From NCBI GenBank assembly GCA_020629155.1, contig JAHDDW010000016.1, positions 1 through 46,116 on the forward strand: DNA of 46,116 nucleotides. Reading direction: 5' to 3'. Numbering within the stretch: the stretch's first letter is position 1; each line of letters opens with the position of its first letter. The position numbers and the translations under genes are program-made. The DNA comes from Acidimicrobiales bacterium. Lineage in GTDB: Bacteria; Actinomycetota; Acidimicrobiia; Acidimicrobiales; SZUA-35. This document shows, piece after piece, positions 14,043 through 30,332 of the stretch. The notes under the pieces were generated by a model, which saw only the letters and a program-made list of their open reading frames with translations, was not told the origin of the DNA and did not search any database.

Positions 14043-14048
14043 CATGAA

Positions 14049-14103: not shown

Positions 14104-14109
14104 GGGTGT

Positions 14110-15656: not shown

Positions 15657-15665
15657 GCTTTGTTT

Positions 15666-16063: not shown

Positions 16064-16075
16064 AGGTGTCAGTTC

Positions 16076-16531
16076 TTATTGGTCGCGTAGATTCTCAATA
16101 TCAGCTAAATCTTGAAGTCTCCCAGAAGCTTTTTTATTTATCAATAGATCCTCTAAACCTATGAAAGGCACTTCCAATTCTTCAATAGGAATAGTGATCC
16201 GTTTATTCCAAGCGTCTTTGAAAGAAATACCTGATACAGAAGTTAAGATGTCAATGCGATGAGGAGGGTAACCAAGTTGTATAACTTGATCAGGTTCTAA
16301 AAAATCTTGCGCTTCTAAACCGAGCGACCCGAATCCAAACTGGTCGAGAACAAACCTTATCCTGTCCGCATTTTCATCGTCTGTCATCACCCAAACATCA
16401 AGGTTTTTTGTGTAACGAGGGTATCCGTGAGCGGCAACTGCATACCCTCCGACAACTAAGAACCGAACACTATTTGCGAGGCAATATTGTATAAACTCTT
16501 TGAAGTCTTGATCCAGTTTCATCAGGTTCAT
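16076..16531 (-). CDS. Nucleotidyltransferase-like toxin component
   Basis: The 151-residue protein has the small nucleotidyltransferase pattern FLVVGGYAVAAHGYPRYTKN followed by LDVWV, then RIDILTSVSGI and a C-terminal LEDLLINKKASGRLQDLADI helix. Such proteins are commonly encoded after a short partner and are thought to form toxin-antitoxin-like pairs. The usual Asp-x-Asp metal pair reads Asn43-Leu-Asp45 here, so catalytic competence is uncertain. The gene overlaps the end of its partner by about 60 bases in another frame. A start nine bases further in (16522) is also possible. It could be a housekeeping nucleotidyltransferase, but the pairing argues otherwise. Confidence 0.72.
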   Translation of the reverse strand: MNLMKLDQDFKEFIQYCLANSVRFLVVGGYAVAAHGYPRYTKNLDVWVMTDDENADRIRFVLDQFGFGSLGLEAQDFLEPDQVIQLGYPPHRIDILTSVSGISFKDAWNKRITIPIEELEVPFIGLEDLLINKKASGRLQDLADIENLRDQ

Positions 16532-16661
16532 CTCGTAAATATGATCGAAGTTCCTCTACGTGAGCTAAGCGATCGACGGCTGTTTGTGATGCCCACCACT
16601 TTTGGTGGCTGTTATCTAGGTCGCCTAATTTTTTCTTCTGAACGACCTTTTCAATGGACAT
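16470..16661 (-). CDS. Small partner protein of the nucleotidyltransferase
   Basis: From the ATG at 16661 the 63-residue protein begins MSIEKVVQKKKLGDLDNSHQ. It contains the family-like core KWWASQTAVDRLAHVEELRS and ends SRLQRVYTILPRK. Short proteins with a W-x-x-x-x-x-x-x-RL-x-x-x-E-x-LR core and an RLQRVYxI end are typically found directly upstream of small nucleotidyltransferases. Earlier in-frame ATGs exist at 16688 and 16679. I prefer 16661 because TATACT (16675-16670 on the minus strand) is a good -10 ending eight bases upstream, suggesting a leaderless mRNA. The antitoxin role is inference. Confidence 0.65.
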   Translation of the reverse strand: MSIEKVVQKKKLGDLDNSHQKWWASQTAVDRLAHVEELRSYLRDEPDETGSRLQRVYTILPRK

Positions 16662-16811
16662 ATATAGAAAGTATACCATGTGCAGCATGCATAGGGTAAA
16701 GTAGGCTGTGCATGTTCCGTGTTCTCCAGTGTTTGATCCAGAAAAACATCACATTGAACAAATCTGATAACGTACGTGTGTTTGTAGGTTGAAACTTATA
16801 GGATCACATGC

Positions 16812-17753
16812 ATGAGTTTGGCAATTGAGGTAAACGATCTTTCAAAAAAGTTCGACGATTTTGAAGCGGTCGCAGGCGTAAGCCTAAGCGTAGAAGCTGG
16901 TGAAATTTATGGGTTTCTTGGGCCTAACGGCGCGGGTAAGTCTACGTTAGTGAAGATGCTTACAACGTTGAGTGTGCCAAGTGGCGGCTCAGCTACAGTG
17001 CTTGGTCACGATATTGTTTCCGAAGTTGGCGACCTGCGGCTCAAAATCGGGGTGGCGTTACAAGATGCATCATTGGATGAAAAACAGTCTGGCCGTGAGA
17101 TACTACGGTTGCAAGGTCGGCTATATGGTTTATCTAAAAAAGAAGCCGATACTCGTATTGACGAACTTTCTACATTAATCGAAGTTGATGCCCTCGATAA
17201 ATGGGTCGGCACCTATTCTGGTGGTATGGAACGCCGCTTGGATTTAGCGGCATCGTTGATGCATAATCCGCAACTGCTTTTTCTTGACGAGCCAACGACA
17301 GGGTTAGATCCTACATCGCGCGCGAATGTGTGGGAAGAAATCCGTCGAATCAACAAAGAATATGGCACGACAATTTTTTTGACGACACAATATCTTGAAG
17401 AAGCTGACGTGTTAGCTGATCGAGTGGCGATTATTAATAAAGGAAAAATAGTTGCACAAGGAACACCTGCTGAGCTGAAACGATCGGTTGGAACAGACGT
17501 GATTCAATTACGTTTAGCGTCACGAATTGAAGAAGCGCAACGTGTTCTTAGTGATTTGAAAGAAGTGTCAAAGGTTGAAGTCGGCCCTAACGGTCTGCTT
17601 GTTTCTGTCGAGCAAGGTTCTGTGGCGGTCAGCCCAATAGCTATTGCGTTAGACGCTAACGATATTGTTGTTGAAGCGTTAACATTGCGCACGCCGACGC
17701 TTGACGATGTTTTTCTTGAAGTAACTGGTGATCGTATGGAGGTCAGCGCATGA
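16812..17753 (+). CDS. ABC transporter ATP-binding protein, DrrA type
   Basis: The 313-residue ATPase has Walker A GPNGAGKST (near residue 37), the Q-loop region ALQDASLDEKQSG, an ABC signature YSGGMERRLDLA, and Walker B LLFLDEPTTGLD. A C-terminal extension of about 90 residues is typical of the DrrA/CcmA drug and lipid exporter group. AGGA lies eight bases before the ATG. The stop overlaps the start of the permease gene as ATGA, so the two form one exporter. The substrate cannot be told from the sequence. DrrA members often confer resistance to hydrophobic compounds. Confidence 0.9.
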   Translation: MSLAIEVNDLSKKFDDFEAVAGVSLSVEAGEIYGFLGPNGAGKSTLVKMLTTLSVPSGGSATVLGHDIVSEVGDLRLKIGVALQDASLDEKQSGREILRLQGRLYGLSKKEADTRIDELSTLIEVDALDKWVGTYSGGMERRLDLAASLMHNPQLLFLDEPTTGLDPTSRANVWEEIRRINKEYGTTIFLTTQYLEEADVLADRVAIINKGKIVAQGTPAELKRSVGTDVIQLRLASRIEEAQRVLSDLKEVSKVEVGPNGLLVSVEQGSVAVSPIAIALDANDIVVEALTLRTPTLDDVFLEVTGDRMEVSA

Positions 17754-18568
17754 ATTATAGCCCTGCTATAACAGCGAAACCGTCGGGTTTTTTGAAAGAT
17801 TTGGTCACAATTGCAGGCCGAGCTTTACGTTCTGTTCCTCGTGAGCCAGAGGTTTTTATCCCCGCCTTGTTTATCCCCGCATTCTTTTTTATTGTCAACA
17901 TCGGGGCGTTGCAAGATTTAACCGAAACGGTTTTGCCAGGTGCTGAACAAGCAATCCCTGAAGATTTTGATTATCGAGCGTTTCAGTTGCCGACTGCCAT
18001 TATTTTTGCGGTGACAGGAGTATCTCGTGCAGCGAGTTTAGTAACAGATATTACTTCAGGCTATTTTGACAGGCTTTTGCTGACACCAACACGACGAGTG
18101 CCGTTGTTGCTTGGTCTGATGGTTGCCGACTGGGCCTTAGTGTCGGTGTTGTGTGTGCCGGTGATTATTTTAGGTTTCATCACTGGTGTTTCATTCGGTA
18201 CAGGCATTTTAGGGATGTTGCTATTTATTCTGATAGGCGGTATTTGGGGGTTAGCGTTCACAGGGTTTCCGTATGCTATCGCTCTGAAAACAGGTAATGC
18301 TGCGGCGGTAGCATCAAGTTTTTTGCTGTTTTTCCCGTTCGCTTTTCTGACTTCATCAACGGTGCCGTTGCAAGGTTTAACGGGATGGATGCAAGCAATC
18401 GCTACCTACAATCCGTTGACCTATATTCTAGATGCGATGCGTTCTTTACTTAGCGAAGGTTGGGATTTCGTTGCACTAGGGAAAGGAATCGCCGCAATTC
18501 TCGCCGTTGCAGTTATTTCGCAGACACTAGCATTCCTCGCTTTAAAAGGCCGACTCAAACGCGGATAG
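17750..18568 (+). CDS. ABC-2 type permease, DrrB type
   Basis: The 272-residue integral membrane protein has about six hydrophobic segments and the ABC-2 layout. The first helix contains FIPALFIPAFFFIV, the central segments lie at about 130-200, and the segment MQAIATYNPLTYILDAMRSLL comes before the last helix. It is the membrane partner of the preceding ATPase, with which it overlaps by four bases. Together they would form an ATP-driven exporter in the cytoplasmic membrane. No substrate-binding protein is present, as expected for an exporter. Confidence 0.9.
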   Translation: MNYSPAITAKPSGFLKDLVTIAGRALRSVPREPEVFIPALFIPAFFFIVNIGALQDLTETVLPGAEQAIPEDFDYRAFQLPTAIIFAVTGVSRAASLVTDITSGYFDRLLLTPTRRVPLLLGLMVADWALVSVLCVPVIILGFITGVSFGTGILGMLLFILIGGIWGLAFTGFPYAIALKTGNAAAVASSFLLFFPFAFLTSSTVPLQGLTGWMQAIATYNPLTYILDAMRSLLSEGWDFVALGKGIAAILAVAVISQTLAFLALKGRLKRG

Positions 18569-18722
18569 CGATTTTTGCACGGCCGTGTATCGTGCGCATG
18601 ATCTTTCGTGTGTCGATACCAAAACGGCTATCGCCACACTAAAATCAATGTATTGCCAATTTATGAGCAGGTGATTGATTCAAGTTAAAACTGAGACACA
18701 CACAAGACATGCATGATTCTAA

Positions 18723-19014
18723 GACATTGATGGTTTCTATCCTGAAATGGTTGCGTACTGCTTCGAAAGCAATGTTGCGTAAATTTACTGAAGACGTAAG
18801 ACAATAACTTTCTGAAACTTAAGCCAGAGTGTGTGTGAATTCTGCCCCAGGCATATTTACTTCAGAAACATATGAAAAGATGATTGGTACTAAAATTTAT
18901 AGAAGTCAGTCGAAACGAGTGCCAGCGGAAGTCGCAGAACTTATTGTATATCTCCTAGAACTACCCAAAGCGATGGAGATTGAATCGATAAAGTTTAAAT
19001 CAAAAATAGCTTGA
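18723..19014 (+). pseudogene. Short-chain dehydrogenase remnant
   Basis: The region decodes as the C-terminal half of an SDR only if errors are repaired. DIDGFYPEMVAY (from 18723) must shift frame at about 18759 to join ASKAMLRKFTEDVRQ, rebuilding the YxASK active-site motif. Two in-frame stops follow (TAA at 18805 and 18820). The frame then reads ARVCVNSAPGIFTSETYEK and ends RVPAEVAELIVYLLELPKAM plus EIESIKFKSK. The VNS-APG and PAEVAELIVYLL elements are SDR hallmarks. The N-terminal Rossmann half is absent. One frameshift plus two stops mark genuine decay rather than one sequence error. Bases 18569-18722 hold nothing I recognise. Confidence 0.68.
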
Positions 19015-19089
19015 TACTTGTGCAGCTGGGTTAAATGGTGGCAAATAAATGCTTGCTAGTAAGAGGTACACTATGCAGTAGGTGGCAAA

Positions 19090-20025
19090 ATGTATCGTCT
19101 TTTCAATCTCGCTCAACGAGTTAAAGTATTTAAGCGAAGTCTCGCTGATGGGGCGCGGAGGGAAAGGCTTAACTCTTTAGCAGCAAGTGGTGGGTTTTGT
19201 TTGCTCGCAGCAGATCATGAAACAACAGAAGGTCCTGTTAACGGTTTGGGAGGTTCAAAGTATGCTCGCTTAGTTGCAGATTCTGTTGAGCGAAGTTATA
19301 GCGGCATGGTCGTTCCAGTGGGAATAGCTGAGCAACCAGAAGTTAGGAGAGCATTTCAAAGAACAGCTCAGAACTTAGTAGTTCAACTTGTGGGTTTGCC
19401 AAATAATGAATCAAACCTAAATAAAGTTGCGCTTGGTTCGGTAGAAGATGCTCTATCACTAGGAGCAACTGCAGTTTCCGTACAGCTTGACTTTTCGAGT
19501 AGTAACTTTCCTGACGCATTCAAAACCATTAACAGCTTAAAAAGTGAAGCCCATAATAAAGGGCTCCCTGTCTTATTGATGATTAACTATGATAAAAACT
19601 GGGAAAATTTTTTAAAGGTGCTTTCGTCTACAGCAACTAACGGTTTCGATCTTATTAAAATCTCGTATCCCGAGAAACCTGAAGATGGACCTAGCGAAGA
19701 GTTGAAAATGAATATCGAAACTAGACTAAATGACCCAGCTTTTCCACCTGTGTTGCTCGCTGGAGGAGCACTACCTGAAGATGCTGGTAAGGTTGAAAAG
19801 ACCTTTAAACAAACATTAGAAAAGGCGGTAGGACTAGGTTTCAAAGGAATTTGTGTAGGGAGAATAGAATTTCAAGGAAAAATACAGAAGAGCCCACCAA
19901 GTATTTTGAAGGAACTTCTAGCTAAAATAAATCCCCCCAAACCCAAAGAGAATTTTGGACCCACAAGAGTAGGCCGAGTCGTACTAACGCTGCGAAGAAC
20001 CGTTGGAGCTATTAATGGGCAATAA
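19090..20025 (+). CDS. FbaB/DeoC-type class I aldolase family protein
   Basis: The 311-residue TIM-barrel protein resembles class I fructose-bisphosphate aldolase (FbaB) and 2-amino-3,7-dideoxy-heptulosonate synthase. It has an ADHETTEGPVNGL motif (Asp42-His43), a GATAVSVQLDF strand, and FDLIKISYP with Lys190 at the place of the Schiff-base lysine. PPVLLAGGA and FKGICVGRIEFQ then bind phosphate in relatives. The C-terminal 35 residues are basic and unusual. It overlaps the EamA transporter gene by 11 bases and precedes an SDR, suggesting a three-gene metabolic unit. The substrate is unknown. Confidence 0.75.
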   Translation: MYRLFNLAQRVKVFKRSLADGARRERLNSLAASGGFCLLAADHETTEGPVNGLGGSKYARLVADSVERSYSGMVVPVGIAEQPEVRRAFQRTAQNLVVQLVGLPNNESNLNKVALGSVEDALSLGATAVSVQLDFSSSNFPDAFKTINSLKSEAHNKGLPVLLMINYDKNWENFLKVLSSTATNGFDLIKISYPEKPEDGPSEELKMNIETRLNDPAFPPVLLAGGALPEDAGKVEKTFKQTLEKAVGLGFKGICVGRIEFQGKIQKSPPSILKELLAKINPPKPKENFGPTRVGRVVLTLRRTVGAINGQ

Positions 20026-20983
20026 AAATTTCAATCAGAAATTACAGCTACTAAATAGTCCTTTGCTCACCATTGCTTTTGTAGCAGCGCTGGCCGGTTT
20101 GATCTCTCCAATGAGTAAGTTAGCACTCGAAGCGGTTCCCTCATTCTCTTTTGTCTTTCTGCGTTTGGGTCTCAGTGCTCTTTTCATTTTCTTTTTTATG
20201 AAATGGCGAGGTTTGTCAATAGGGTTGGTTGATATCAGAAAACTATTTTCCGTGGCTATCTTTTGGGATATCAACATTTTGTTATTTGCATTTGGTGTGC
20301 AACGGACAGATGCATCGACTGCGCAACTGATCCACGTTGCTATCCCAGTTGTCACGGCAGTTCTAGCCTTTTTAATCATTGGAGAAAAACTTACAGGCCT
20401 TCAATGGAGTGGATCTTTTTTAGCCCTGAGTGGTGTATCACTTATTATTATTTTCAATGATTCGTTTGTTTTGAGCTTCGGCGAGGTTGCGGGGAATCTT
20501 TTAGTGTGCGCATCAGCTTTCTCGTTTTCTCTTTTCGCAGTAGTGTCGAAACGAGAGCAATATAAACTCTATGACCCCTTGCAAGTTGTTTTTGTTGCGG
20601 CGTTTCTAGGAGCTATTCTTTTTACGCCAGTTGCCTTATATGAGACATGGTCTCAAAAGTGGTTTACAAAAATAGAAGTCATTTCTGTTATTCATATCAG
20701 TATTGTTGTTCTGGCGACTATTTTTCTCTATACCTTTATGCAGACCATCATCAAAAAGACAGGACCTTCCTACGCCACAGTCATCCTATATTTGGTATTT
20801 TTTGCAGCAACTCTTTGGTCAGTAATTTTCCTTGATGAATCGCTTACTCTGGTTAAGCTTTGCGGCGCTTTATGTATTCTCTCAGGCGTAGTAATTTTTA
20901 ATAAGCATAAACCTAAGATAGAGATGGACTTTTCTGAGCTAGAACAGAAAGTCTTGGACAAAGAAGAAGCGTATGAGAAGTGA
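20015..20983 (+). CDS. EamA/DMT-superfamily transporter
   Basis: The 322-residue protein has ten predicted hydrophobic helices in two EamA repeats. The first contains SFVFLRLGLSALFIFFFMKW and the second includes GPSYATVILYLVFFAATLW. The end of each repeat carries the usual IGEKLTGLQWSG and LDESLTLVKLCGA segments. Members export or import metabolites such as amino acids and nucleotides. GGAG lies seven bases before the ATG at 20015, which I chose over an upstream TTG at 20003. It overlaps the aldolase gene, so a linked function such as export of an aldolase-derived product is plausible but unproven. Confidence 0.87.
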   Translation: MGNKNFNQKLQLLNSPLLTIAFVAALAGLISPMSKLALEAVPSFSFVFLRLGLSALFIFFFMKWRGLSIGLVDIRKLFSVAIFWDINILLFAFGVQRTDASTAQLIHVAIPVVTAVLAFLIIGEKLTGLQWSGSFLALSGVSLIIIFNDSFVLSFGEVAGNLLVCASAFSFSLFAVVSKREQYKLYDPLQVVFVAAFLGAILFTPVALYETWSQKWFTKIEVISVIHISIVVLATIFLYTFMQTIIKKTGPSYATVILYLVFFAATLWSVIFLDESLTLVKLCGALCILSGVVIFNKHKPKIEMDFSELEQKVLDKEEAYEK

Positions 20984-21015
20984 ACCTTTGTTAGTTGTCT
21001 GGTTAAACTATTCAT

Positions 21016-21762
21016 ATGAGTACATACATCATCGGAGGCGGCACATCTGGAATCGGAAAGACAGTTGCCCTAGATCTTCTTGAACAGGGAAACGCAGTCG
21101 TGGTGTTTGGGAAAGGTAAGACCCATGTAGATAGCTTTCAAAAAGAAGTTGCTGATCATTATAAGACTAAATGTGTGGTATATTGCGGCGATTTAGTCGA
21201 CAGACAATACGTTGACTCGGTTGTTTCTACGCTAAAAAGTCAAAGTATTGAGGGCCTTGTGAACGCCGCAGGAACTATCTCAGGAGAAGGAATCTACGAA
21301 GAAAAACCAGAAACCTTTGAATATGTTTTGAGTCAAAATTTAGTTTCTGCGTTTAACCTAACACAAAGTGCACTATTGAATCTTTCGATGTCAGGGGCTT
21401 CAATAGTCAATATCTCATCGGTTTGTTCATTGGTGCCTTGCACCTCGTTATCGTATTCAGTAAGCAAGGCAGGCATGGATATGTTCACTAAATCTTTAGC
21501 TAAAACCCTTGCTTCAGATAACATCCGAGTGAACAGCGTTAACCCAAGTGTCGTGGAAACTAATTTGCAGAAAAGCGCTGGGCTATTCCAGGAAACAGAC
21601 TATCAACAGTGGCTAGAAGAAGTTGCGCCTGCTCACCCTTTAGGCAGAGTAGGCACGCCTCAAGATATTTGTGAAGCTATAAAGTTTTTGTTAGACCCAG
21701 AGAAATCAGGTTGGATAACTGGCGCAATACTCAGCATCGACGGTGGTCGTTCCGTAGCTTAA
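21016..21762 (+). CDS. Short-chain dehydrogenase/reductase (SDR)
   Basis: The 248-residue classical SDR has a nucleotide-binding loop GGGTSGIGKTVA (residues 8-19), the NAAG motif, the catalytic Ser in IVNISSV, and YSVSKAG for Tyr and Lys. IRVNSVNP and ITGAILSIDGG follow near the C-terminus, the typical FabG-like ending. It reduces or oxidises a carbonyl/alcohol with NAD(P)(H), substrate unknown. It follows the EamA gene by 32 bases on the same strand. TAAACT six bases before the ATG may be a -10 box for an extra leaderless promoter. Its stop codon overlaps that of the convergent gene. Confidence 0.92.
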   Translation: MSTYIIGGGTSGIGKTVALDLLEQGNAVVVFGKGKTHVDSFQKEVADHYKTKCVVYCGDLVDRQYVDSVVSTLKSQSIEGLVNAAGTISGEGIYEEKPETFEYVLSQNLVSAFNLTQSALLNLSMSGASIVNISSVCSLVPCTSLSYSVSKAGMDMFTKSLAKTLASDNIRVNSVNPSVVETNLQKSAGLFQETDYQQWLEEVAPAHPLGRVGTPQDICEAIKFLLDPEKSGWITGAILSIDGGRSVA

Positions 21763-22217
21763 GGAAGATATTCTTTCCTGGGGTCCTCAGGGAAGTTGAC
21801 GACGTCGAAAAGCACAAATCTTTTTGGTGTGATTCGGTAGAAACGGTGCGGTCTTTCTGAGTGATTAATGAAAGTATCGATTGTTTCACCGTCGAAAATC
21901 CTGTTTTCATACAGGTTTCTTGCTTTTTCAATTTCGGAAGCCTCAGTCAGCATTTGGGCGGTGCCTTCAAATTGAAGACCTCTGGGTGGATCAGCTGGCG
22001 TTTGCGGCAAAGCTAACGCGCCAGCAACACGAGAATCACTCTCTAACTCTTTCGAGTGCCTTCGAGTTATAGAACTAAAAAAGTAGGTGTTTAGGTCTTC
22101 ATCTGCTGCTTGCCAAACGCTACATGCCCAAGGATTTCCACCAGCCACAGTGCAAACTTGCATAAGTTGAGCCTCTTCAAGATAGTCACTGATTAAACTA
22201 CGAAGTTTTTCTTCCAT
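21759..22217 (-). CDS. Pyridoxamine 5'-phosphate oxidase-fold protein
   Basis: The 152-residue protein has the split-barrel flavin-binding pattern. It shows LMQVCTVAGGNPWACSVWQA near the N-terminus, then YFFSSITRRHSKELESDSRV and VAGALALPQ, followed by LQFEGTAQML and a C-terminal FYRITPKRFVLFD strand. The family binds FMN or F420 and includes pyridoxamine oxidases, general stress proteins and heme-handling proteins, so the substrate is not determined. It converges on the SDR gene and the two stop codons share a TTAA sequence. Confidence 0.8.
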   Translation of the reverse strand: MEEKLRSLISDYLEEAQLMQVCTVAGGNPWACSVWQAADEDLNTYFFSSITRRHSKELESDSRVAGALALPQTPADPPRGLQFEGTAQMLTEASEIEKARNLYENRIFDGETIDTFINHSERPHRFYRITPKRFVLFDVVNFPEDPRKEYLP

Positions 22218-22260
22218 GACATACGTTTAGGTATTGCTTCTGAAATAGCCAAATCACACG

Positions 22261-23151
22261 TTAGTTGGAGCTATCGTTCTGGATAAATTTTTTGAGATTC
22301 TTTACAGCACTTCGACCTCGTCTTGCATCTGTTTCATAGGTGTCGCCTGCAACAGCCGTAGAAAAAATCACTCGTGGTAAGTCTTTATAACGCTCGTAGT
22401 TCTGAACACCAGCTGACATATCGAACAGCGCAAAGTTTCCGTCTTGATCAATCCATTCGAAGAAGGCAGGGATGTCAAATGGGCTTCCCCCGCTCGCTTG
22501 CACAAGAATGCTTTTAGGTTTCATAGCAGTAAACGCTTTTGCGTCTAGAACAACAACATCTGTTGTGCTACAGATAACAGTGATATCTGACGAAGCGACA
22601 AGCTCATTAACCTTAACGTGGCGAAGACCTTTGTCTTCCCACGTTTGCTTACGATTAGGACTGAAATAAATCACGTTCATCTTATATGCCAATGCCATAT
22701 GAGCCATTGCTTGCCCTACCTTGCCAAGCCCGATAATCCCCATGGTTCTACCAAGAAGCTCATGCTCATTGCCAGAACGCCATTGATAGTCACCTGCGCC
22801 CCGTGTAAGTTGTACGAGCATCATAAAAAAGTATTCAGCCACAGATTCTTTGTCGTCGGAAACAATATTGCTAAACGCAATGCCGCGTCGTTCTAGTTCT
22901 TCTAGATCAACATTAGCTGTGGAAGTTCCGCAGAGGCCTACATATTTTAGGTTTGGGCAACTGTTCAGATAGTCTGCATCAATTTTTTCCCACGTTGTTG
23001 CAAGCACAATTTCGGCGGTTCCTGTTCGATCGATCCTTTCATTTTCTGGACAACGTTCCGTAGGAAAATCAATTGTATTACTGGCGAATGCTTGGATTTG
23101 TTTTTGAACTTCAAGATCATGGCGATAGTCAAGAACTGCTATTTCATACAT
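22261..23151 (-). CDS. D-isomer-specific 2-hydroxyacid dehydrogenase
   Basis: Counted from the ATG at 23151 the protein has 296 residues. The NAD-binding domain has the TMGIIGLGKVGQAMA loop. The catalytic Arg is in VQASGGSPFDIPA (weakly conserved here), and the ADVDLEELERRGI-like segment lies before the core as NVDLEELERRGIAFS. The usual ATGGxVVD region is divergent (SILVQASGG), and I cannot identify the canonical Glu/His pair clearly, so activity needs testing. An upstream start at 23202 is open, but TATACT ending six bases before the ATG at 23151 suggests leaderless initiation there. Confidence 0.8.
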   Translation of the reverse strand: MYEIAVLDYRHDLEVQKQIQAFASNTIDFPTERCPENERIDRTGTAEIVLATTWEKIDADYLNSCPNLKYVGLCGTSTANVDLEELERRGIAFSNIVSDDKESVAEYFFMMLVQLTRGAGDYQWRSGNEHELLGRTMGIIGLGKVGQAMAHMALAYKMNVIYFSPNRKQTWEDKGLRHVKVNELVASSDITVICSTTDVVVLDAKAFTAMKPKSILVQASGGSPFDIPAFFEWIDQDGNFALFDMSAGVQNYERYKDLPRVIFSTAVAGDTYETDARRGRSAVKNLKKFIQNDSSN

Positions 23152-23164
23152 ATGAAAAGTATAG

Positions 23165-23335
23165 CTACGTCCAGTAAAGTACAAGGCGTAACTTGGTGTC
23201 ACAGAATCTAGAGCACATATAGATCTCTACTTCCAACGAATGAGCATCAAGCCAAATCTGCAAGTCTGGACAATTGTCTAAAGGCTCTTGGGAATCGATA
23301 AGCGCAGTATTAATATAAGACCTGTTCAGAAGCAC
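23165..23335 (-). CDS. Possible 56-aa ORF or gene remnant
   Basis: Between the dehydrogenase and parA the minus strand is open from a GTG at 23335 to a TAG at 23165. It would read MLLNRSYINTALIDSQEPLD, then NCPDLQIWLDAHSLEVEIYM, then CSRFCDTKLR and a hydrophobic end. The frame is open further upstream to about 23385. The residue mix looks protein-like, but I recognise no family and the ribosome binding site is unclear. It could be a small gene, a fragment, or chance. Confidence 0.2.
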   Translation of the reverse strand: MLLNRSYINTALIDSQEPLDNCPDLQIWLDAHSLEVEIYMCSRFCDTKLRLVLYWT

Positions 23336-23382
23336 TGTGCTGGTGATGTGGTGCTGCTGCTCTAATAGTTGTAGGCTGAAGT

Positions 23383-24207
23383 GTGGCTACTAGTGAATCA
23401 GAAAAATCAACGCTTCCGAGCGCTCCGCGTATTATGGCTGTCGCCAATCAAAAAGGCGGCGTTGGGAAAACAACAACGGCGGTGAACTTCGCCGCCGCTG
23501 CAGCAGAAATGGGTCACCGTATTTTGCTTGTTGACCTAGATCCGCAGGCAAATGCAAGCACGGGGCTCGGCCTAAACCCGCAGAAAATCGAATCGTCTAT
23601 GTATGACGTTTTGCTAAACGAAGTACCGCTTGATGATGCCATTGTTGCAGCATCGGTACGCAACTTATTTATTGCTCCCGCGAATCTGGATTTAGCAGGC
23701 GCCGAGATTGAGCTTGTTCCTGCATTTAGTCGCGAAATGAAGCTCAAAAATGCGTTAGCAAAAGTGCAAGACGACTATGACATTATTCTGATCGACTGTC
23801 CTCCTTCATTAGGTCTGCTTACTGTCAATGCGCTAGCAGCTGCGAAAGAAGTGCTTGTTCCTATCCAATGTGAATATTATGCGTTGGAAGGTTTAGGCCA
23901 GCTATTACGCAACGTCGATTTGGTGCAGCGTAACTTAAACACCGAGCTGTATCTATCAAATATTGTGCTTGTGATGTTTGACGCCCGAACGAACTTGGCG
24001 GCACAAGTCGCCGATGAAGTCCGTGAACATTTCGGCGACATTGTTTGCAAAACAGTTATTCCTCGCAGCGTTCGCCTAAGCGAAGCGCCAAGTTTCGGTC
24101 AGCCGATAACGGTTTTCGACACCGCTTCTCGTGGTGCCTTATCATATCGAGATTTGGCGGCAGAAATCTCGGGCCCGGTGAAAGAAGAAAGTGGCCAGAG
24201 TGAATGA
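23383..24207 (+). CDS. parA: Chromosome-partitioning ATPase ParA (Soj)
   Basis: The 274-residue protein is a standard chromosomal ParA. The deviant Walker A is KGGVGKTTT (near residue 24) within IMAVANQKGG, Walker A' is LLVDLDPQANAS, and Walker B is IILIDCPPSLG. It forms ATP-dependent dimers on nucleoid DNA and moves ParB-parS complexes. The start is a GTG at 23383. An internal ATG at 23434 (MAVANQKGG) would remove a 17-residue tail. It overlaps parB by 17 bases. In related genomes it follows rsmG directly, but here Block A intervenes. Confidence 0.95.
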   Translation: MATSESEKSTLPSAPRIMAVANQKGGVGKTTTAVNFAAAAAEMGHRILLVDLDPQANASTGLGLNPQKIESSMYDVLLNEVPLDDAIVAASVRNLFIAPANLDLAGAEIELVPAFSREMKLKNALAKVQDDYDIILIDCPPSLGLLTVNALAAAKEVLVPIQCEYYALEGLGQLLRNVDLVQRNLNTELYLSNIVLVMFDARTNLAAQVADEVREHFGDIVCKTVIPRSVRLSEAPSFGQPITVFDTASRGALSYRDLAAEISGPVKEESGQSE

Positions 24208-25039
24208 TTCTGTTGATCAAACAACAGAAAATGCTTCTGCCATAACTCCTCAATTGGTCGAGATCCGTATCGACCAGATTATTCAAAATGAATATCAGCC
24301 GCGTAAACGTTTCGCTGAGGCCGAGCTTGTCGACCTGTCTGAATCAATTCGCGAAGTTGGTGTTTTGCAGCCAATTCTTGTGCGTCCTTACGAAGATGGT
24401 CTGTTTGAACTAATTGCAGGCGAGCGTCGTTGGCGAGCCGCCAGACGAGCAGATCTAGAAACTATCCCAGCGGTTATACGTGAAATAGACGATCAGACAT
24501 CGTTGGAGCACGCCATTGTTGAGAACTTGCACCGTGAAGATTTAAATTGTTTAGAAGAAGCGACGGCGTATCAGCAATTGATTGACGAATTTGAACTGAC
24601 GCAAGCAGATGTTGCGACTCGTGTGGGCAAGAGTCGCTCTGCCGTAACTAACACCATACGTTTGCTTCAATTGCCTCTTAAAGTGCAAAAAATGGTTTTA
24701 AATAATGAACTTACGGCTGGACACGCAAAAGCTATTTTAATGTTGGATTCTCCTTTGGAGCAAGAGGCGTTAGCGATGAAGGTGCGTGCTGAAGGTTTGC
24801 GTGTAAGAGAAACTGAAAAGTTGGCGACCACGTTCTCGACTACCCCTAAGGTTTCTAAGGAAACACAGTCGAACGCTTACAAATCAACTGGTTATCTTGA
24901 GGTTGAACGGCTATTGGCTGACTATTTGAGCACTAAAGTAGAAGTGGTAAACGCGCAGAAGCGAGGAAAGCTAATCATAGATTTTGCCGACTCGCAAGAC
25001 TTAACACGCATATTCGAGCTGCTCTATACGTATCGTTAG
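24191..25039 (+). CDS. parB: Chromosome-partitioning protein ParB
   Basis: The 282-residue protein has the ParB N-terminal CTPase domain: IQNEYQPRKRF, VGVLQPILVRP, and the GERRWRA box near residue 77 (read as LIAGERRWRAARRA). A central helix-turn-helix (TQADVATRVGKSRSAVTNTIR) binds parS, and a C-terminal dimerisation domain ends LLYTYR. It loads at parS and spreads as a CTP-gated clamp. GTG codons at 24191 and 24200 are both possible starts inside the end of parA. A near-perfect parS lies 350 bases downstream. Confidence 0.95.
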   Translation: MARVNDSVDQTTENASAITPQLVEIRIDQIIQNEYQPRKRFAEAELVDLSESIREVGVLQPILVRPYEDGLFELIAGERRWRAARRADLETIPAVIREIDDQTSLEHAIVENLHREDLNCLEEATAYQQLIDEFELTQADVATRVGKSRSAVTNTIRLLQLPLKVQKMVLNNELTAGHAKAILMLDSPLEQEALAMKVRAEGLRVRETEKLATTFSTTPKVSKETQSNAYKSTGYLEVERLLADYLSTKVEVVNAQKRGKLIIDFADSQDLTRIFELLYTYR

Positions 25040-25390
25040 CTAGAAACAAATCAGTTATTCTGGTCTAGTTGGTGGACTCTTCCCCCCTATTGCTTGTTGT
25101 GAACTCTGATCCTTACCTAGTCAATCAGGTTGATTCTAGAGTGTGAGCCTTTCCTAAATAGAGGCTATCTATCGAGACTGCCTTTTGTTTGTTCCTTGCC
25201 TGTACGAGCACATGTGAAAACCTCCATGGGATGGTCCGAGTGGGGCGGAAATGTAGTAGGTGTCTACAATTATTCGAGACGCAGACAAAGACTATGCGAG
25301 TGTCACGTATCGACCCTTCGAGTCTTGAATCCTGCATGGACTATTGGGAACGCTTGTCAGTCTCAAGCGATAGAGATCCACTTGGTTGGA
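25040..25390. other. Intergenic stretch between parB and parS
   Basis: This 351-base stretch carries no gene I can support. Short frames exist on both strands, but none resembles a family and none has a good start. A CACATGTGAAAAC at about 25209 is only loosely parS-like. Base composition is ordinary here, in contrast to the GT-rich tract further right. Confidence 0.5.
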
Positions 25391-25406
25391 TGTTTCACGT
25401 GAAACC
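25391..25406. promoter_or_regulatory. parS centromere site
   Basis: TGTTTCACGTGAAACC matches the universal chromosomal parS consensus TGTTTCACGTGAAACA in 15 of 16 positions. ParB binds this palindrome. It is the only parS I found in the window, although the region near oriC often carries several. Confidence 0.95.
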
Positions 25407-25446
25407 CCTAGGTTGACCCTTGAAGTGTCAGAATATAACCTATTTT

Positions 25447-25482
25447 CACCCTTGTTAACCCATGTAAGGGTTTGTTTGGGTG
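25447..25482. repeat. Nested dyad with symmetric spacing
   Basis: The sequence can be read as CACCC-5 bases-AACCC-6 bases-GGGTT-5 bases-GGGTG. AACCC pairs with GGGTT and CACCC with GGGTG, and the five-base spacers are the same length on each side. Such a two-layer dyad could be a protein-binding site with two half-site pairs or a structured RNA/DNA element. It lies 41 bases after parS and 715 bases before the second parA-like gene. Confidence 0.5.
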
Positions 25483-25740
25483 GTAAATAGAACCTATGTG
25501 TGTATAGAAAGGGTAATTTCATGAATAAATGTGGGGTGAAAAGGTATGTCTGGGTATAAATGGGGATTATTTGATTGAGGTTTGTTTATTGGGTAGAAAC
25601 CGTAAGCGAAAGAATGAAACTTGCTCTGAGAAGCGCGTCAAGCTACTGTGAGTGTGTTGATTTTTGACGTTGGCTTACATCACGGGCTTGAGCCTGCGGT
25701 GCTTTAGGTTTTAAATTGAGAGGGCAAATTTTGAGGAGTT

Positions 25741-26160
25741 TAAAAACCCACTAAACATGGGTCTGGGGAGAGATTTGTATGGGGTGGGGTTCTGTGTTGG
25801 GGTATGGAAGTGGTGGTTTGGGGCTTGTAAGGGTGTTAAAAGGGTTGTTTGGGGGGTAAGGGTTTATTTTTTGGGTATGTTATGGGTGTGTATTGGTTTG
25901 TTTGGGGGGCAAGAGTAGAAAATCGAGACTAGACAGCTTCTTGATTTGGTAAGTCAGTCTCTTTCTTGGGTATATAGTGGTATGTTTGGTTGTCTTTTGG
26001 AGTTATTTGGGTTTAGTTGGGTATGTATAGGTGTAAATCTGTTTCTTTGGGATTGGAAAGGGGTTTTTCTTGTGTGTCTGGGGGTACTTGGTGACCTTCT
26101 GTTTAGTTTGGTGGTGTTGTGGGGTTTTATGGGTATAATTTAGGGGTTGTTGGGTGCAAG
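25741..26160 (+). repeat. GT-rich, C-poor tract with G-runs and short repeats
   Basis: Over about 420 bases the plus strand is very rich in G and T and very poor in C: each of the lines 25801-25860, 25861-25920 and 26101-26160 has a single C. Runs of three or more G recur, for example at 25781, 25786, 25799, 25820, 25831, 25842, 25851 and 25860, giving strong G-quadruplex potential. TTGTTTGGGGGG occurs twice (25845-25856, 25898-25909). TTGGGTATGT occurs twice (25871, 26017), and GGGTAT six times between 25552 and 26136. A consensus -10 TATAAT lies at 26134-26139, 58 bases before the next gene. The stretch from 25483 to 25740 is less extreme and has no gene I can support. Confidence 0.7.
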
Positions 26161-26197
26161 GCCCTCGTCGTCCAATTATTGTAGAGCAGGTAGACAA

Positions 26198-27070
26198 ATG
26201 AGTATTAAAAATTCAGTAGTTGTCGGGATAGGTAAAGGTGGTAGTTGCAAAACAACGCTCGCCACGCAACTCGCAGGGATCTGGTCAAGCGAAGGTAAAA
26301 AGATCTTGCTTGCCGATTTAGACATGCAAGCGTCAGCAACAAAAGTTGTGGGTCTTGATCCAAATCAACATGGTGACGGTCGCCATCTTATGGATGCCAT
26401 AATGTATGGTGACGATATAGCCACCGTCAAGGCAAGAGATAATCTAGACATAATTGTCGCAGGTCGCCATACAAAAACATTATCGAATCACCTTGTCACC
26501 GCACAAAGCCCAGCTGAAGCATTTGCTGTCCCTTTTGAAAAACTAAATGCGATAGCTCGCTACGATCGAATAATTTTTGACCTTCCTCCATCTGGTTCGT
26601 CAAGACTCGCGGATATGGCGATGCAAACAGGTCAATACTTACTTGTTCCAACGAGCAGCGGTGTTGACAATATCGAAGGTCTGCGAGTTCTTGCGGGAGA
26701 ACTCGAACAGCTAAACTCAGATATTCTTCTTCTTGGTGTTGTGATGATGAAAATTGGAGCAGGTGCTTCCCGGAAACGTTTAGAAACACAACAACAAGTC
26801 ACCGAAATTTTAGCGGGGGTTGCCGACCCGTTCCAAACAGTTATACGAGAAGCAGGCGCAGCGTATGACGATAGTCGCAAAGCAAACCTGTTTCTCCATG
26901 AATATGCTGAGTGGGCAAGTACGGTTTCGATCTCGAACCAGATACGTGGAAGGATCAAAATCCCTGGCAACTTAAAAGACCTTGCGCGAGAGTTTTATGA
27001 ACTGGCCGACGAAGTCGATGACCGCATTGCCTTAGCCGAGCAGCTACTTACAGGAGAAACGGCAGCATGA
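26198..27070 (+). CDS. Plasmid-type ParA-like ATPase with variant P-loop
   Basis: The 290-residue protein has the ParA/Soj layout: MSIKNSVVVGIGKGGSCKTT at the N-terminus, Walker A' LLADLDMQASAT and Walker B IIFDLPPSGSSRLADMA. The P-loop reads KGGSCKTT where ParA proteins have KGGxGKTT, so a normally fixed Gly is Cys. The DxDPQ motif is DLDMQ. The signature lysine at the start of KGG is retained. I chose the ATG at 26198 over an upstream frame because AGGT precedes it and the family starts there. It overlaps its partner gene by four bases. Context suggests a plasmid-derived partition system, though other ParA-like positioning roles are possible. Confidence 0.8.
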   Translation: MSIKNSVVVGIGKGGSCKTTLATQLAGIWSSEGKKILLADLDMQASATKVVGLDPNQHGDGRHLMDAIMYGDDIATVKARDNLDIIVAGRHTKTLSNHLVTAQSPAEAFAVPFEKLNAIARYDRIIFDLPPSGSSRLADMAMQTGQYLLVPTSSGVDNIEGLRVLAGELEQLNSDILLLGVVMMKIGAGASRKRLETQQQVTEILAGVADPFQTVIREAGAAYDDSRKANLFLHEYAEWASTVSISNQIRGRIKIPGNLKDLAREFYELADEVDDRIALAEQLLTGETAA

Positions 27071-27657
27071 GCGATAAAACACTAAAACAAGCCAGAGGTC
27101 TTAATTCCATCGCTAACCCTGCAGATTTTCGAGGTAAGGGTCGGAATAAGCCTGAGCCTAAGGTGAAACCTGAACCAGAAGTGATTCCTCTCAAAAAGGA
27201 ATCTCATCAGACACCAGTTAGTGCAAATAGCACGGTCGAGCAACAACCAGCAGACGTCACACCTCTAGAACCTAAACAAGAAAAACCAGAACGCAACCAT
27301 TTAGCTGTTGCTGAACCAGTTCCAGCGGCACGCCCACATCGAGCTGTTGTCCCAGGAACGAAACGTATTCGGCGTGAATTGTCAGTACCAATTCCTGTAG
27401 CTGATGCACTTGAAGCCACACGCATCAACCCAGCAGATATAGTTATGGCAGCCTATCGTAAACACAGTGACGACATATATGCAGGGAACAAAGGCCGTAT
27501 GGTTTCACGAGGCAGAAAACGCTTGAGACTATCCATCTCTGATAAAGAATTTGACCAGATTACCCGCCTAGGCGAAGCCAGAGGCTGGAACAAATCAGAA
27601 GTAGTCGCTGTGCTTCTAGCAGCGGAACTAATAACAGAATCATCGCTGGATGTATAA
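27067..27657 (+). CDS. Ribbon-helix-helix partner of the second ParA
   Basis: The 196-residue protein has a disordered N-terminal half rich in Pro, Glu and Lys (about residues 20-95). Two C-terminal segments with the beta-helix-helix look of ribbon-helix-helix (RHH) DNA-binding units follow: RRELSVPIPVADALEATRIN from about residue 102, and RLRLSISDKEFDQITRLGEA followed by RGWNKSEVVAVLLAAEL from about 152. In type Ib plasmid partition a small RHH protein binds the centromere and activates ParA. The tandem arrangement would let one chain contribute two units. The ATG overlaps the ParA stop as ATGA. Confidence 0.65.
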   Translation: MSDKTLKQARGLNSIANPADFRGKGRNKPEPKVKPEPEVIPLKKESHQTPVSANSTVEQQPADVTPLEPKQEKPERNHLAVAEPVPAARPHRAVVPGTKRIRRELSVPIPVADALEATRINPADIVMAAYRKHSDDIYAGNKGRMVSRGRKRLRLSISDKEFDQITRLGEARGWNKSEVVAVLLAAELITESSLDV

Positions 27658-27780
27658 CGTATGGTTGCTAACAAGGCAGGTTTCAATGCTTGGGAGAAAC
27701 CGAAAGCTACTGAATCAGAGAACTGTATGGCAAGCGATGCATTGAGTATTTAAAGCGCGAACATATTTCCTAAAGCCGAG

Positions 27781-28554
27781 TTAGTAAGTCATGAAAGTGT
27801 CAGGTGTGTCCCAATTTAAACCGCTGGGAGGCTTAAGCGGAGGTGTTATTGTATCGAAAAGTATGTTCTGCAAGCGACGAACGTTAGGGTTATCGAAAAA
27901 ATCTTGTATTTTTTTTAGTTCTCTTTTTTGGACTTTTTCGGCCATAGTGGGGAGGGTATCTTCAAGAAATTCGGCAATTTTTTTGAGCACTTCGCCTTTC
28001 GTTATATAGCCATTAGAGGTTACTTTCACAACTCTGTCCCAAGGGTTGAACCCATCAGTATTTAGCATGCTTTCTGGAAGTTCATAAGCAAATTTTTCAT
28101 GAAAATCATATAGTTTATATTCGAGAAAGGGATCTCTTTCAGGGTATGCTTCTAATTCAGATTTTCCTTTTAGGTACGCTCTACCGTTTTGCTTAATAAC
28201 AGCTTTGATTAAGTTAGGCAATGATATGATTTCGGGAACAAATGTAAATTGAACATCAAAAGCAGTAGGCCGTAGGGCCTCTATTAAAGGCAGTAAATTC
28301 GATGCGAAATCGTATTCTGAGATCTCGGCTTGGTTTCCAAGATATTCTTCCGAATCATCGTATTCTTTCCAAGTAACGTCAGATATTTTATTAGAACCTG
28401 GGTTGGCTAGGTAGTCTAGATCGTCGTTAAAAAGTACTACAAGTAAATTTTCTTCTTCAGGGTGGCGAGAAACTTGTATAGGAGCCCAAACTTTGCGTAA
28501 ATCCTCGCGCGCCTCATCCCTTACTTCGGAAAGAGCGCTTGTTTCTCCAGACAT
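27781..28554 (-). CDS. Hypothetical protein, 257 aa
   Basis: I do not recognise this protein. From the ATG at 28554 (GAAAGG ten bases upstream) it is soluble and acidic, with no signal peptide or membrane segment. Visible features are an early LLVVLFNDDLDYL strand-like segment, a central FDVQFTFVPEIISLPNLIKA and a helical Lys/Glu-rich part (EVLKKIAEFLEDTLPTMAEK). A proline-rich end, ITPPLKPPSGLNW, follows. Base composition is more A/T-rich than the core genes, suggesting acquisition. It converges on the second par pair and lies next to a MITE-like element. Confidence 0.75.
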   Translation of the reverse strand: MSGETSALSEVRDEAREDLRKVWAPIQVSRHPEEENLLVVLFNDDLDYLANPGSNKISDVTWKEYDDSEEYLGNQAEISEYDFASNLLPLIEALRPTAFDVQFTFVPEIISLPNLIKAVIKQNGRAYLKGKSELEAYPERDPFLEYKLYDFHEKFAYELPESMLNTDGFNPWDRVVKVTSNGYITKGEVLKKIAEFLEDTLPTMAEKVQKRELKKIQDFFDNPNVRRLQNILFDTITPPLKPPSGLNWDTPDTFMTY

Positions 28555-28662
28555 AGCTATCAAGCCTTTCTTTGCAGTTTGTCTATTTTACTATAACAAT
28601 AGAAAATTGATGCAACAAGCCATGACTTGCAACGACAAGTACAGTCGTACAACTTTGTAAAG

Positions 28663-28843
28663 CTAGATGGTTGATTCCTAGCCTACTCAGGTCGTCATTC
28701 CCACGAAAGTGGGAATCTCTGATGGACAAGATCCCCGATTTCTCACAGATGACCATCTGGAATCAAGATAGAGTAAAAACGGCAGCGCTACTTGTTTGTA
28801 AAATACTTTAAAATTCGACATGTTCTTAGAATCAACCATCTAG
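28663..28843. mobile_element. MITE/REP-like element with 15-bp inverted ends
   Basis: CTAGATGGTTGATTC (28663-28677) and its exact inverse GAATCAACCATCTAG (28829-28843) bound a 181-base non-coding segment. Inside is a perfect hairpin, ATTCCCAC-GAAA-GTGGGAAT (28697-28716), followed by GATCCCCGATTT and GATGACC. This combination resembles the widespread GTCATTCCC-hairpin REP-type repeats found in many bacteria. I could not find a clear target-site duplication. Bases 28564-28662 hold no gene. Confidence 0.6.
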
Positions 28844-28852
28844 GTGATTAAC

Positions 28853-28892
28853 AAAAAAAGTTTGAGCCTCTTCAATATGAAAAGGCTCAAAC
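28853..28892 (-). terminator. Rho-independent terminator of trxA
   Basis: GTTTGAGCCT (28860-28869) and AGGCTCAAAC (28883-28892) form a perfect 10-bp stem. On the minus strand it is followed by seven T (complement of 28853-28859). It lies 30 bases downstream of the trxA stop. Confidence 0.9.
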
Positions 28893-28921
28893 CTGGTAAA
28901 TTTTTACACTAACTATATTCG

Positions 28922-29239
28922 TTAAATCTCTAGTTCTTTAAGAAGGCCAGCTTTGTTTTTCGCGCCGACAATGCGTTTTGCTTCTTCACCCGATTTAAAC
29001 AACAACATGGTAGGAATGCTACGAACAGAGAAACGCACCGACAGTGCAGGGTTCTCATCAACGTTAACTTTCGCTATAACAACTTTATCACCGTGCTCAT
29101 TTGCGATTTCTTCAAGAATAGGTGCAACAGCGCGGCATGGCCCACACCATTCTGCCCAGAAATCGACAAGAACAGGCAAGTCATTCTTAATCGCTTCATC
29201 AAACGATGCTTCTGTTAGGTTTTCTATCGTATCTGACAT
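28922..29239 (-). CDS. trxA: Thioredoxin
   Basis: The 105-residue protein has the thioredoxin fold with the active site WAEWCGPCRA near residues 29-38. The conserved cis-proline is in SIPTMLLFKSG, and a C-terminal GAKNKAGLLKEL helix follows. It reduces protein disulfides in the cytoplasm and is itself reduced by TrxB, encoded 127 bases upstream on the same strand. GGAGA precedes the ATG. The pair matches trxB2-trxC in mycobacteria. Confidence 0.96.
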   Translation of the reverse strand: MSDTIENLTEASFDEAIKNDLPVLVDFWAEWCGPCRAVAPILEEIANEHGDKVVIAKVNVDENPALSVRFSVRSIPTMLLFKSGEEAKRIVGAKNKAGLLKELEI

Positions 29240-29366
29240 TATGTTCTCCAGTCAGGTCTAGACACTAGACGCTTAGCATATGTAACACTAGAGCATCCAC
29301 GTGATATTCCTACAGATAGTAGGTCATTAGTAACAAAGTTACTACATCGCTCGCCAGGCCAGCTTA

Positions 29367-30332
29367 TTAAGCATCGTGTTGATCTTCTAGCCAGCGCTCT
29401 GCATCAATAGCGGCGCTACACCCTGAACCAGCAGCTGTAATAGCTTGGCGATAGGTTTCGTCTTGCACATCGCCGCACGCAAAAACACCAGCAACATTTG
29501 TAGATGTAGCAGGAGAGTTCGTTAAGAGATACCCCTTGTCATTAGTGTCAAGTTGTCCTTTAAAAAGATCAGTATTTGGGCGGTGTCCGATAGCAATAAA
29601 CAGACCAGTAACAGCAAGCGTTGATTTCTCTTGCGTTTTGTTATTCACCACATCAATTGATTCAAGTTGCTCGGTGCCGTTAATTGCGTGCACTTCGCTG
29701 TCCCACAGAAATTCGATCTTGTCGTTAGCGAAAGCTCGTTCCTGCATTATTTTAGACGCTCGAAGCTCATCGCGGCGATGAATGATCGTTACCTTCGAAG
29801 CAAATTTGGTTAAAAACGTTGCCTCTTCAATAGCGCTGTCGCCGCCACCAATAACAGCTATCTCTTGATCTTTGAAGAAAAAACCATCACAAGTAGCACA
29901 CGTAGACACGCCACGGCCGATCAGTTCAGTCTCATTATCGAGGCCTAACATCACAGACTTAGCGCCAGTAGAAACAATAATTGACTTTGCTTCATAATCG
30001 GCTTCGCCATCATGAGGTCTATCAGTCCAAATTTTAAAAGGTCGCTGTGACAAGTCAACCGAGGTGACTTTTGTTGTCTCGAACTTGGCACCAAAACGCT
30101 CGGCCTGTGATCTGAAATTAGCCATTAATTCAGGCCCCATGATGCCTTTCGGAAAACCTGGAAAGTTTTCAACATCAGTCGTTAGCATTAACTGCCCACC
30201 TGGTTGATCGCCTGTAGACGAAGGTTCGCCAGCAAGAACCAGTGGTTCTAAAGCAGCTCGTGCGCTATAGATAGCTGCGGTTAACCCAGCAGGTCCACTT
30301 CCGATAATAATAAGATTGTGCAGTGCGGGCAT
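29367..30332 (-). CDS. trxB: Thioredoxin reductase
   Basis: The 321-residue flavoprotein has an N-terminal FAD-binding GSGPAGLTAAIYSARA, the redox-active CATC (VSTCATCDGFFF) near residue 143, an NADPH-binding GGGDSAIEEA and the C-terminal GVFACGDVQDETYRQA FAD motif. It transfers electrons from NADPH to thioredoxin. It begins three bases after the stop of the small membrane protein gene, so these are cotranscribed. Length and motif order are normal. Confidence 0.97.
   Translation of the reverse strand: MPALHNLIIIGSGPAGLTAAIYSARAALEPLVLAGEPSSTGDQPGGQLMLTTDVENFPGFPKGIMGPELMANFRSQAERFGAKFETTKVTSVDLSQRPFKIWTDRPHDGEADYEAKSIIVSTGAKSVMLGLDNETELIGRGVSTCATCDGFFFKDQEIAVIGGGDSAIEEATFLTKFASKVTIIHRRDELRASKIMQERAFANDKIEFLWDSEVHAINGTEQLESIDVVNNKTQEKSTLAVTGLFIAIGHRPNTDLFKGQLDTNDKGYLLTNSPATSTNVAGVFACGDVQDETYRQAITAAGSGCSAAIDAERWLEDQHDA

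Follow-up and report, generated by a model that had tools for sequence, protein, structure and literature searches.

RHH-type partition is known from plasmids, and archaeal SegAB represents a chromosomal parallel. According to PMC5016525, type Ib systems combine a small partner protein, in which a flexible N-terminus is followed by a C-terminal RHH domain, with a repeat array beside the operon. PMC13245405 describes RHH systems as binding statically to arrayed centromeric repeats, and PMC9178275 describes SegAB as a chromosomal ParA with an RHH centromere-binding protein whose sites lie upstream of the genes. Among the papers listed in a literature search limited to open-licence papers, none is on a chromosomal bacterial RHH partition locus.

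A ParA2/RHH gene pair beside chromosomal parABS

Here, we analyze a 46,116-nt stretch of an Acidimicrobiales genome (the window, i.e., the whole of contig C16 of genome G000) in which a gene for a ParA-type ATPase, ParA2, overlaps by 4 bp with a gene for a predicted RHH partner, and in which a G-rich spacer lies immediately upstream of this pair (the cassette) and downstream of chromosomal parA, parB and a parS-like site (Table 1). The initial annotation had already placed the parS-like site, the ParA-like gene and the RHH gene around the spacer, and all three are there; the 16-mer by which the site is called parS-like is what we take to be the parS consensus. The window also encodes dnaA (8977-10440, minus strand), followed by dnaN, yidC and jag, all by Pfam. 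Because these genes as well as parA and parB share the contig with the pair, the pair belongs to the chromosome and lies close to the origin. Query genes that we take, by sequence recognition, to be trxA and trxB lie at 28922 and 29367 on the strand opposite to the pair. The HTH-ParB-type ParABS system thus adjoins the cassette in the same origin region; the repeat array of the cassette, however, differs from parS.

Table 1. Features of the locus, in window positions
Feature	Position	Strand	Remark
Chromosomal parA	23383..24207	+	Pfam, context gene
Chromosomal parB, HTH type	24191..25039	+	Pfam, context gene
Chromosomal parS-like site TGTTTCACGTGAAACC	25391..25406	.	1 mismatch to 16-mer consensus
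G-rich spacer carrying phased repeats of GGG/GGGT and GGGTA(T)	25447..26197	+	Proposed centromere/operator array
TGGGTAT core	25551..25557	+	GGGTAT at 25552
GGGTAT core	25800..25805	+	GGGTAT at 25800
TGGGTAT core	25872..25878	+	GGGTAT at 25873
TGGGTAT core	25967..25973	+	GGGTAT at 25968
TGGGTAT core	26018..26024	+	GGGTAT at 26019
TGGGTAT core	26130..26136	+	GGGTAT at 26131
ParA2, ParA-type Walker ATPase, 290 aa	26198..27070	+	AAA_31, E 3.5e-21
RHH partner protein, 196 aa	27067..27657	+	Predicted: disordered N-terminal half, two RHH units

ParA proteins of type-I RHH-ParB (type Ib) systems are without a long N-terminal HTH extension. The same holds for ParA2, in which the AAA_31 match starts at residue 8 of 290. 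Neither ParA2 nor the RHH protein has a match above cut-off in NCBIfam, and Pfam searches at E 0.01 and E 10 gave no match for the RHH protein, hence none to ParB_N or HTH_ParB; by Pfam, the ParB_N CTPase and HTH domains of HTH-type ParABS partners are absent from it. An AF2 model based on 15 sequences has a low-confidence N-terminal half followed by two RHH units in one chain (residues 100-139 and 150-193), with the elements E100-108, H109-118 and H122-139, and E150-158, H159-172 and H176-193, in blocks with pLDDT values of 90-96; in this monomer model, both ribbons of an RHH fold are provided by one chain. The partner is thus predicted to be a small protein with an unstructured N-terminus and a C-terminal RHH region as in type Ib systems, in a variant with two RHH units per chain. 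Foldseek ranks chains of the F relaxosome highest (E 3.5e-3, with no match below 0.001), and chain 9f10_E aligns to the model with Z 9.4 and an rmsd of 3.1 over 94 residues (VIA-align). We take this chain to be TraY, the structure record naming only the F plasmid relaxosome. TraY of the F plasmid has tandem RHH units in one chain as predicted for the partner; however, TraY is a conjugation protein, while the predicted tandem RHH protein of the window is paired with a ParA. A search of PDB sequences with an RHH profile gave a single match at E 2.7, which is not meaningful. In its N-terminus, the partner has a near invariant motif, MSxxTLGKARGLNSIADP, and R10 within ARGLNSIA, a candidate arginine finger of the tail, is invariant in 15/15 aligned sequences.

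Several plasmid systems resemble this layout. TP228 ParF-ParG-parH, pSM19035 delta-omega and pCXC100 share with the locus a ParA ATPase and, with partner and centromere as described in PMC5016525, an RHH partner and an adjoining array. The locus differs from type Ib plasmid systems in being chromosomal and origin-linked, in the two predicted RHH units per chain, in the GGGTA core phased at 10.5 bp and in the array, which in most relatives flanks the genes on either side. It differs from SegAB, which is archaeal and has palindromic SegB sites, in that its repeats are directional direct repeats. ParA2 matches 849 plasmid records, two of which were inspected, i.e., pAL1 of Arthrobacter (the best match) and pCHL of Nocardioides. 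Both encode a ParA ∼32% identical to ParA2 and a partner (204 and 187 aa, respectively; that of pCHL is annotated as RHH, CopG family), with the two genes overlapping by 4 bp. Upstream, they have direct repeats of 11 and 12 bp; in stretches picked by eye after reading, self-identity is highest at lags of 11 and 12 bp, with 0/300 shuffles as high. Unlike the chromosomal GGGTA array, these repeats are plasmid-borne and consist of other words (GAATGCG, TARCGG). Because neither partner aligns significantly with the window's partner, the analogy is a likeness of layout rather than proof of descent. The RHH protein had no tblastn match among plasmids at E 1, while ParA2 matches 17 phage records, all at <60% identity. 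The ParAs of loci L019-L021 were read by eye only.

Other features of the window are recorded here for their own sake. Between the RHH gene and trxA lies an ORF of 260 aa (27781-28563, minus strand) without a Pfam match at E 0.01 and without a tblastn match in the 20 relatives' loci searched. Between the rsmG query gene and parA are ∼9 kb of other genes (13922-23382), including a HipA-like kinase (14382-15656, Pfam) and, by eye, an ABC transporter, another transporter and others; in several relatives, rsmG and parA nearly adjoin. The very end of the contig (46055-46116) consists of 8.9 copies of a perfect 7-bp tandem repeat, TATTCTC, which could be a VNTR or an assembly edge. Rfam gave no match over 22000-30000, and a promoter scan found 4 sites compared to 3.8 in shuffles.

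Composition and periodicity of the tract

The tract of 751 bp upstream of ParA2 contains 161 A, 70 C, 249 G and 271 T. GGGTAT occurs six times on the plus strand and not at all on the minus strand, while TTGGGTATGT (25871 and 26017) and TTGTTTGGGGGG (25845 and 25898) occur twice each and nowhere else in the window on either strand; these counts agree with those in the initial annotation. Over the entire spacer (25040-26197), the six GGGTAT compare to 0.92 expected and the five TGGGTAT to 0.32 expected, and in neither case did any of 1,000 first-order Markov shuffles reach the count. The tract is also strongly G-skewed. In 500-bp windows, the skew peaks at 0.66 in the window starting at 25751 while the highest value outside 25000-26300 is 0.27, making the skew of the tract the strongest of the whole window. 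The longest C-free run is 85 nt, compared to 35 nt (plus strand) and 66 nt (minus strand) outside 25001-26300. The description of the tract as nearly free of C applies to 25761-25920 (4 C) and 25966-26150 (9 C); by contrast, 25600-25760 (27 C) and 25921-25965 (9 C) have an ordinary C content. Similarly, the suggested proneness to G-quadruplexes is reflected in G4Hunter values, which are ≥1.2 in 118/727 25-nt windows in the tract versus 57/44,768 outside (absolute value), but a canonical G3+ quadruplex with 1-7-nt loops is absent from the tract.

The tract is also periodic. GGGT has a period of 10.3 bp and GGG one of 10.4 bp, and for GGGT, GGG and TGGG the phasing was not matched in any of 300 shuffles each; that of GGGTA is weak (6/300 shuffles as high). 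The GGGT phasing value of the tract, 3.6, compares to at most 2.0 in 116 other 751-bp windows taken from the contig, a control of low power because pairs are scarce in these windows (2-6 in the top rows). Self-identity of the tract by lag is not significant (18/300 shuffles as high). Moreover, none of the three close GGGTA pairs after parB is phased in G000, a triple-phased GGGTA pattern has no match in this genome, and its RHH gene is not followed by any GGGTA over 250 bp. The array in the window is, in other words, weaker than the pooled figures for the family suggest.

Phased GGGTA repeats and the gene pair in one family

Among 119 genomes searched, ParA2 is present in 17 (including G000), all in the window's family, at 77-83% identity in the 16 others; further matches, among the matches listed, have ≤47% identity. 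The RHH gene was detected in 16 genomes at E <1e-27, leaving aside two weak ones from other families (E 1e-4 to 1e-3); in G033, the contig stops near the end of the ParA2 match. Scanning 84,980 species genomes for ParA2 returned 16 loci, all, by title, from Acidimicrobiia, Acidimicrobiales, Acidimicrobiaceae or actinobacterial MAGs, in a scan that misses distant kin because it needs exact peptide words. The mean column identity of ParA2 is 87%, and none of its 17 copies is interrupted by a stop (one is cut by a contig end). In the same genomes, the 77-83% identity of ParA2 compares to 48-58% for ParB; this conservation is not exceptional because chromosomal ParA is equally conserved (69-83%). 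The pair adjoins parB, in either orientation, in 12/12 genomes with parAB and the pair on one contig, and it is on the trxA side of parB wherever the fetched stretch includes trxA.

These 12 genomes provided the parB-to-cassette spacers for comparison; G019, G023, G027 and G036, with parB and the pair on different contigs, and G033, in which no parB was found, were left out. By dinucleotide expectation, TGGGTAT is among the most enriched words together with parS-type words (32 occurrences versus 1.5 expected; 10/12 genomes). Under a maximal-order Markov expectation, which is stricter, the top 14 words of the same 12 spacers include none with GGGTA, and the enrichment thus depends on the null used. 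The spacing is more telling: same-strand GGGTA copies are mostly 10-11, 21-22, 31-33 or 42-44 bp apart. Pooled over the 12 genomes, 70/89 same-strand pairs lie within 1.5 bp of a multiple of 10.5 bp, where a uniform distribution gives 34%; because pairs are non-independent, we rely on first-order Markov shuffles, 300 of which gave 0.08 pairs at 10-11 bp on average and never more than 1, compared to the 18 observed. The best period over 11 spacers is 10.6 bp. Aligning 55 phased copies gives GGGTAYRAANN, and the two register positions that follow are G in 49/55 and 46/55, counts that are partly built in because the copies were chosen for having a phased neighbor. The array unit in relatives is thus 11 bp, roughly GGGTAYRAANN, and its core, GGGTAYRAA, is non-palindromic and directional.

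Phasing is kept in most relatives and concentrates at the locus. In the loci of ten relatives, 12/46 overlapping spacer windows have phasing values >4 versus 6/269 other windows, and all six of the latter overlap or adjoin the cassette. The ten genomes that have the motif have spacers of 0.7-2.6 kb, along which its copies are spread. In G001 and G002, which belong to the window's own genus, both genes are present while the spacer lacks GGGTAT; G001 retains phased G-runs, G002 is without GGG phasing, and no alternative motif was found in either. RHH strand substitutions in these genomes (S106T and S156T in G001; R102Q in G002) are suggestive of residues that track motif loss, but this idea is contradicted by G004, which has S106T and keeps phased GGGTA. 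By contrast to phasing, 300-bp windows with a skew >0.4 occur in only 3/12 single-contig spacers (G000, G004 and G037), and the phasing and TGGGTAT excess recur in the low-skew spacers of G011, G014 and G030. We therefore rejected strand skew or G-quadruplexes as a conserved feature, and the strand-biased, quadruplex-prone nature of the centromere suggested in the initial annotation is not supported; what the spacers share is the helical phasing of GGGTA. Two spacers contain further reading frames by eye: that of G004 has an open reading stretch resembling a LAGLIDADG-type homing endonuclease (L059, ∼7770-8110), and in that of G011 a nitroreductase-like frame and another seem to sit inside the array region (L061, 4861-7427), so that the G011 array is split by genes.

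Several lines of evidence tie the phased repeats to the cassette. First, as in type Ib systems with an array upstream of the operon, GGGTA occurs ≤200 bp upstream of ParA2 in 15/17 cassettes (the exceptions being G001 and G002) and at least twice in 14 (shuffle maxima, 14 and 8). Downstream of the RHH gene, it also occurs within 250 bp in 12/16, nearly always on the minus strand of the cassette and with G000, G001, G002 and G004 as exceptions; where the cassette faces parB, this downstream stretch belongs to the same spacer. Second, over the 1.5 kb that follow parB (342 bp in G036) in 15 cassette genomes, 37/44 GGGTA pairs within 45 bp are phased, contributed by nine genomes. The same stretch contains no phased pair, and no pair at all, in 13 valid control genomes without the cassette, in which the spacers are short (121-332 bp in four measured); of 15 control rows, G025 and G029 were excluded, here and from the ParB tree, for in-frame stops that revealed wrong coordinates. 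Third, a triple-phased GGGTA pattern has 19 matches in 39 family genomes versus one for the reversed-pattern control, and 15/19 are on contigs with the cassette or parB and come from 8/17 cassette genomes. Among these, the G019 match is ∼6 kb from the cassette and near a contig end. Of the four others, G003 and G016 account for three, which are of a GGGTACT type, and G010 for one; off this locus's contigs the cassette genomes contain none.

Looser patterns were less specific. TGGGTAN{4,5}TGGGTA has 27 matches in 12/39 genomes, a number that alone says little because the reversed control gives 15. Eleven matches are on cassette or parB contigs (six genomes), and the 16 others comprise 15 that start with TGGGTACT and one overlapping such a match. 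The TGGGTACT-type matches, which also occur in genomes without the cassette and were treated as unrelated, lie within ∼170 bp of contig ends beside a tRNA-like stretch on three G000 contigs, one beside an integrase-like frame (by eye). At the ends of G000 contigs C9, C22 and C49 (L155, L156 and L157), multi-copy TGGGTACTNNNTGGGTAC direct repeats are seen by eye beside a tRNA-like stretch and are perhaps integrase arm sites of an integrated element. The pattern TGGGTATN{3,33}TGGGTAT was too loose, with 28 matches in 17/39 genomes, five of them on this locus's cassette contigs, and 11 for the reversed control.

The parS-like site varies with the cassette. With ≤3 mismatches allowed, it follows the parB match at a distance of 55-586 bp from its end in 13/15 cassette genomes (three with 3 mismatches) and ∼2 kb after parB in G011 and G019. 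In the 13 valid controls, the sole parS-like site found is 1.77-2.15 kb before the parB end, placing it upstream of parA in the four genomes mapped (G017 and G026 among them). In the window's family, the position of the parS-like site, downstream of parB in cassette genomes, thus shifts together with the cassette, a displacement of a chromosomal centromere site. In a ParB tree, presence and absence of the cassette are separated by one branch (support 95/93), and because of this the associations of the cassette with the array and with parS position represent one evolutionary event. The phasing, which recurs in spacers otherwise unlike in sequence, is the more independent evidence.

Interpretation of the array

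We consider it probable that the locus is a chromosomal type-I RHH (type Ib-like) partition module with its centromere/operator array next to parS. The proposal that the tract is a centromere or regulatory array of the ParA/RHH pair is partly supported, in that the repeat lies next to most homologous pairs and phased pairs are missing at the same place in the 13 valid relatives without the pair; it does not extend to G001 and G002, which lack GGGTAT. From the repeats with their phasing and recurrence in relatives, the gene co-occurrence, the predicted fold and the plasmid analogues, we infer binding, ParA2 stimulation and a function in segregation. We suggest that the tract is the form taken in this genome by a phased array of direct repeats that would be bound by the tandem-RHH protein of the adjacent operon. 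The array would serve as a centromere and, where copies sit just upstream of ParA2, also as an operator in autoregulation. The RHH protein would coat the array by docking along one face of the helix, while its disordered N-terminus would engage and stimulate ParA2. In this way, the origin region, which also bears parS, would be positioned, held or segregated by a second, RHH-type system beside the HTH-type ParABS. Because the two predicted RHH units share one chain and differ, the recognized site need not be palindromic, which fits the directional GGGTA core.

Alternatively, the array could be an autoregulatory operator alone, with ParA2 and the RHH protein positioning other cargo or regulating genes instead of segregating DNA. 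ParA-type ATPases can position non-DNA cargo, and the copies just upstream of ParA2 in 15/17 cassettes would suit an operator. However, copies spread over spacers of 0.7-2.6 kb and on both sides of the genes in most cassettes exceed what an operator needs, and the pair is beside parAB in all 12 genomes with both on one contig; we regard this alternative as unlikely.

It is less probable still, and in our opinion quite improbable, that the array belongs to the HTH-type ParABS/SMC loading region or is a site for a nucleoid protein that merely neighbors the cassette. A parS-like site does lie beside the array within 600 bp of parB in 13/15 cassette genomes, and at ∼2 kb in G011 and G019, but the 13 valid controls have parS and parB and no phased pair after parB (although this contrast represents one event in the tree and the control spacers are short), and copies are also present on the trxA side of the cassette. 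That a plasmid partition locus was captured and is now decaying, as a non-functional remnant that in this genome has undergone G-rich drift, would explain why GGGTAT is absent in G001 and G002 and why the window's array is degenerate; we consider it very unlikely given the 77-83% identity of ParA2 in 16 relatives, the lack of internal stops, the mean column identity of 87% compared to 48-58% identity for ParB, and the phasing kept in most relatives. Finally, the extreme skew of the tract would be expected of a compositional artefact, i.e., a G-rich leading-strand spacer prone to G-quadruplexes with chance repeats, but we give this next to no credence because the phasing and TGGGTAT excess beat composition-matched shuffles and recur in the low-skew spacers of G011, G014 and G030, and because the tract is without a canonical quadruplex.

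Beyond the reading of the locus as a partition module, a broader scenario that we hold to be nearly evenly balanced is that two segregation systems share one composite origin-proximal centromere, with ParABS acting at parS and a captured RHH-type system acting at its own phased array, kept across a clade of one Acidimicrobiales family. The 10.5-bp phased GGGTAT provides a concrete candidate binding site, and a single-chain asymmetric RHH protein could explain directional centromere repeats. If true, the scenario would be a natural case of plasmid-segregation capture and, if function is shown, the locus would be an exception to the stated rule that bacterial chromosomes use HTH-ParB alone.
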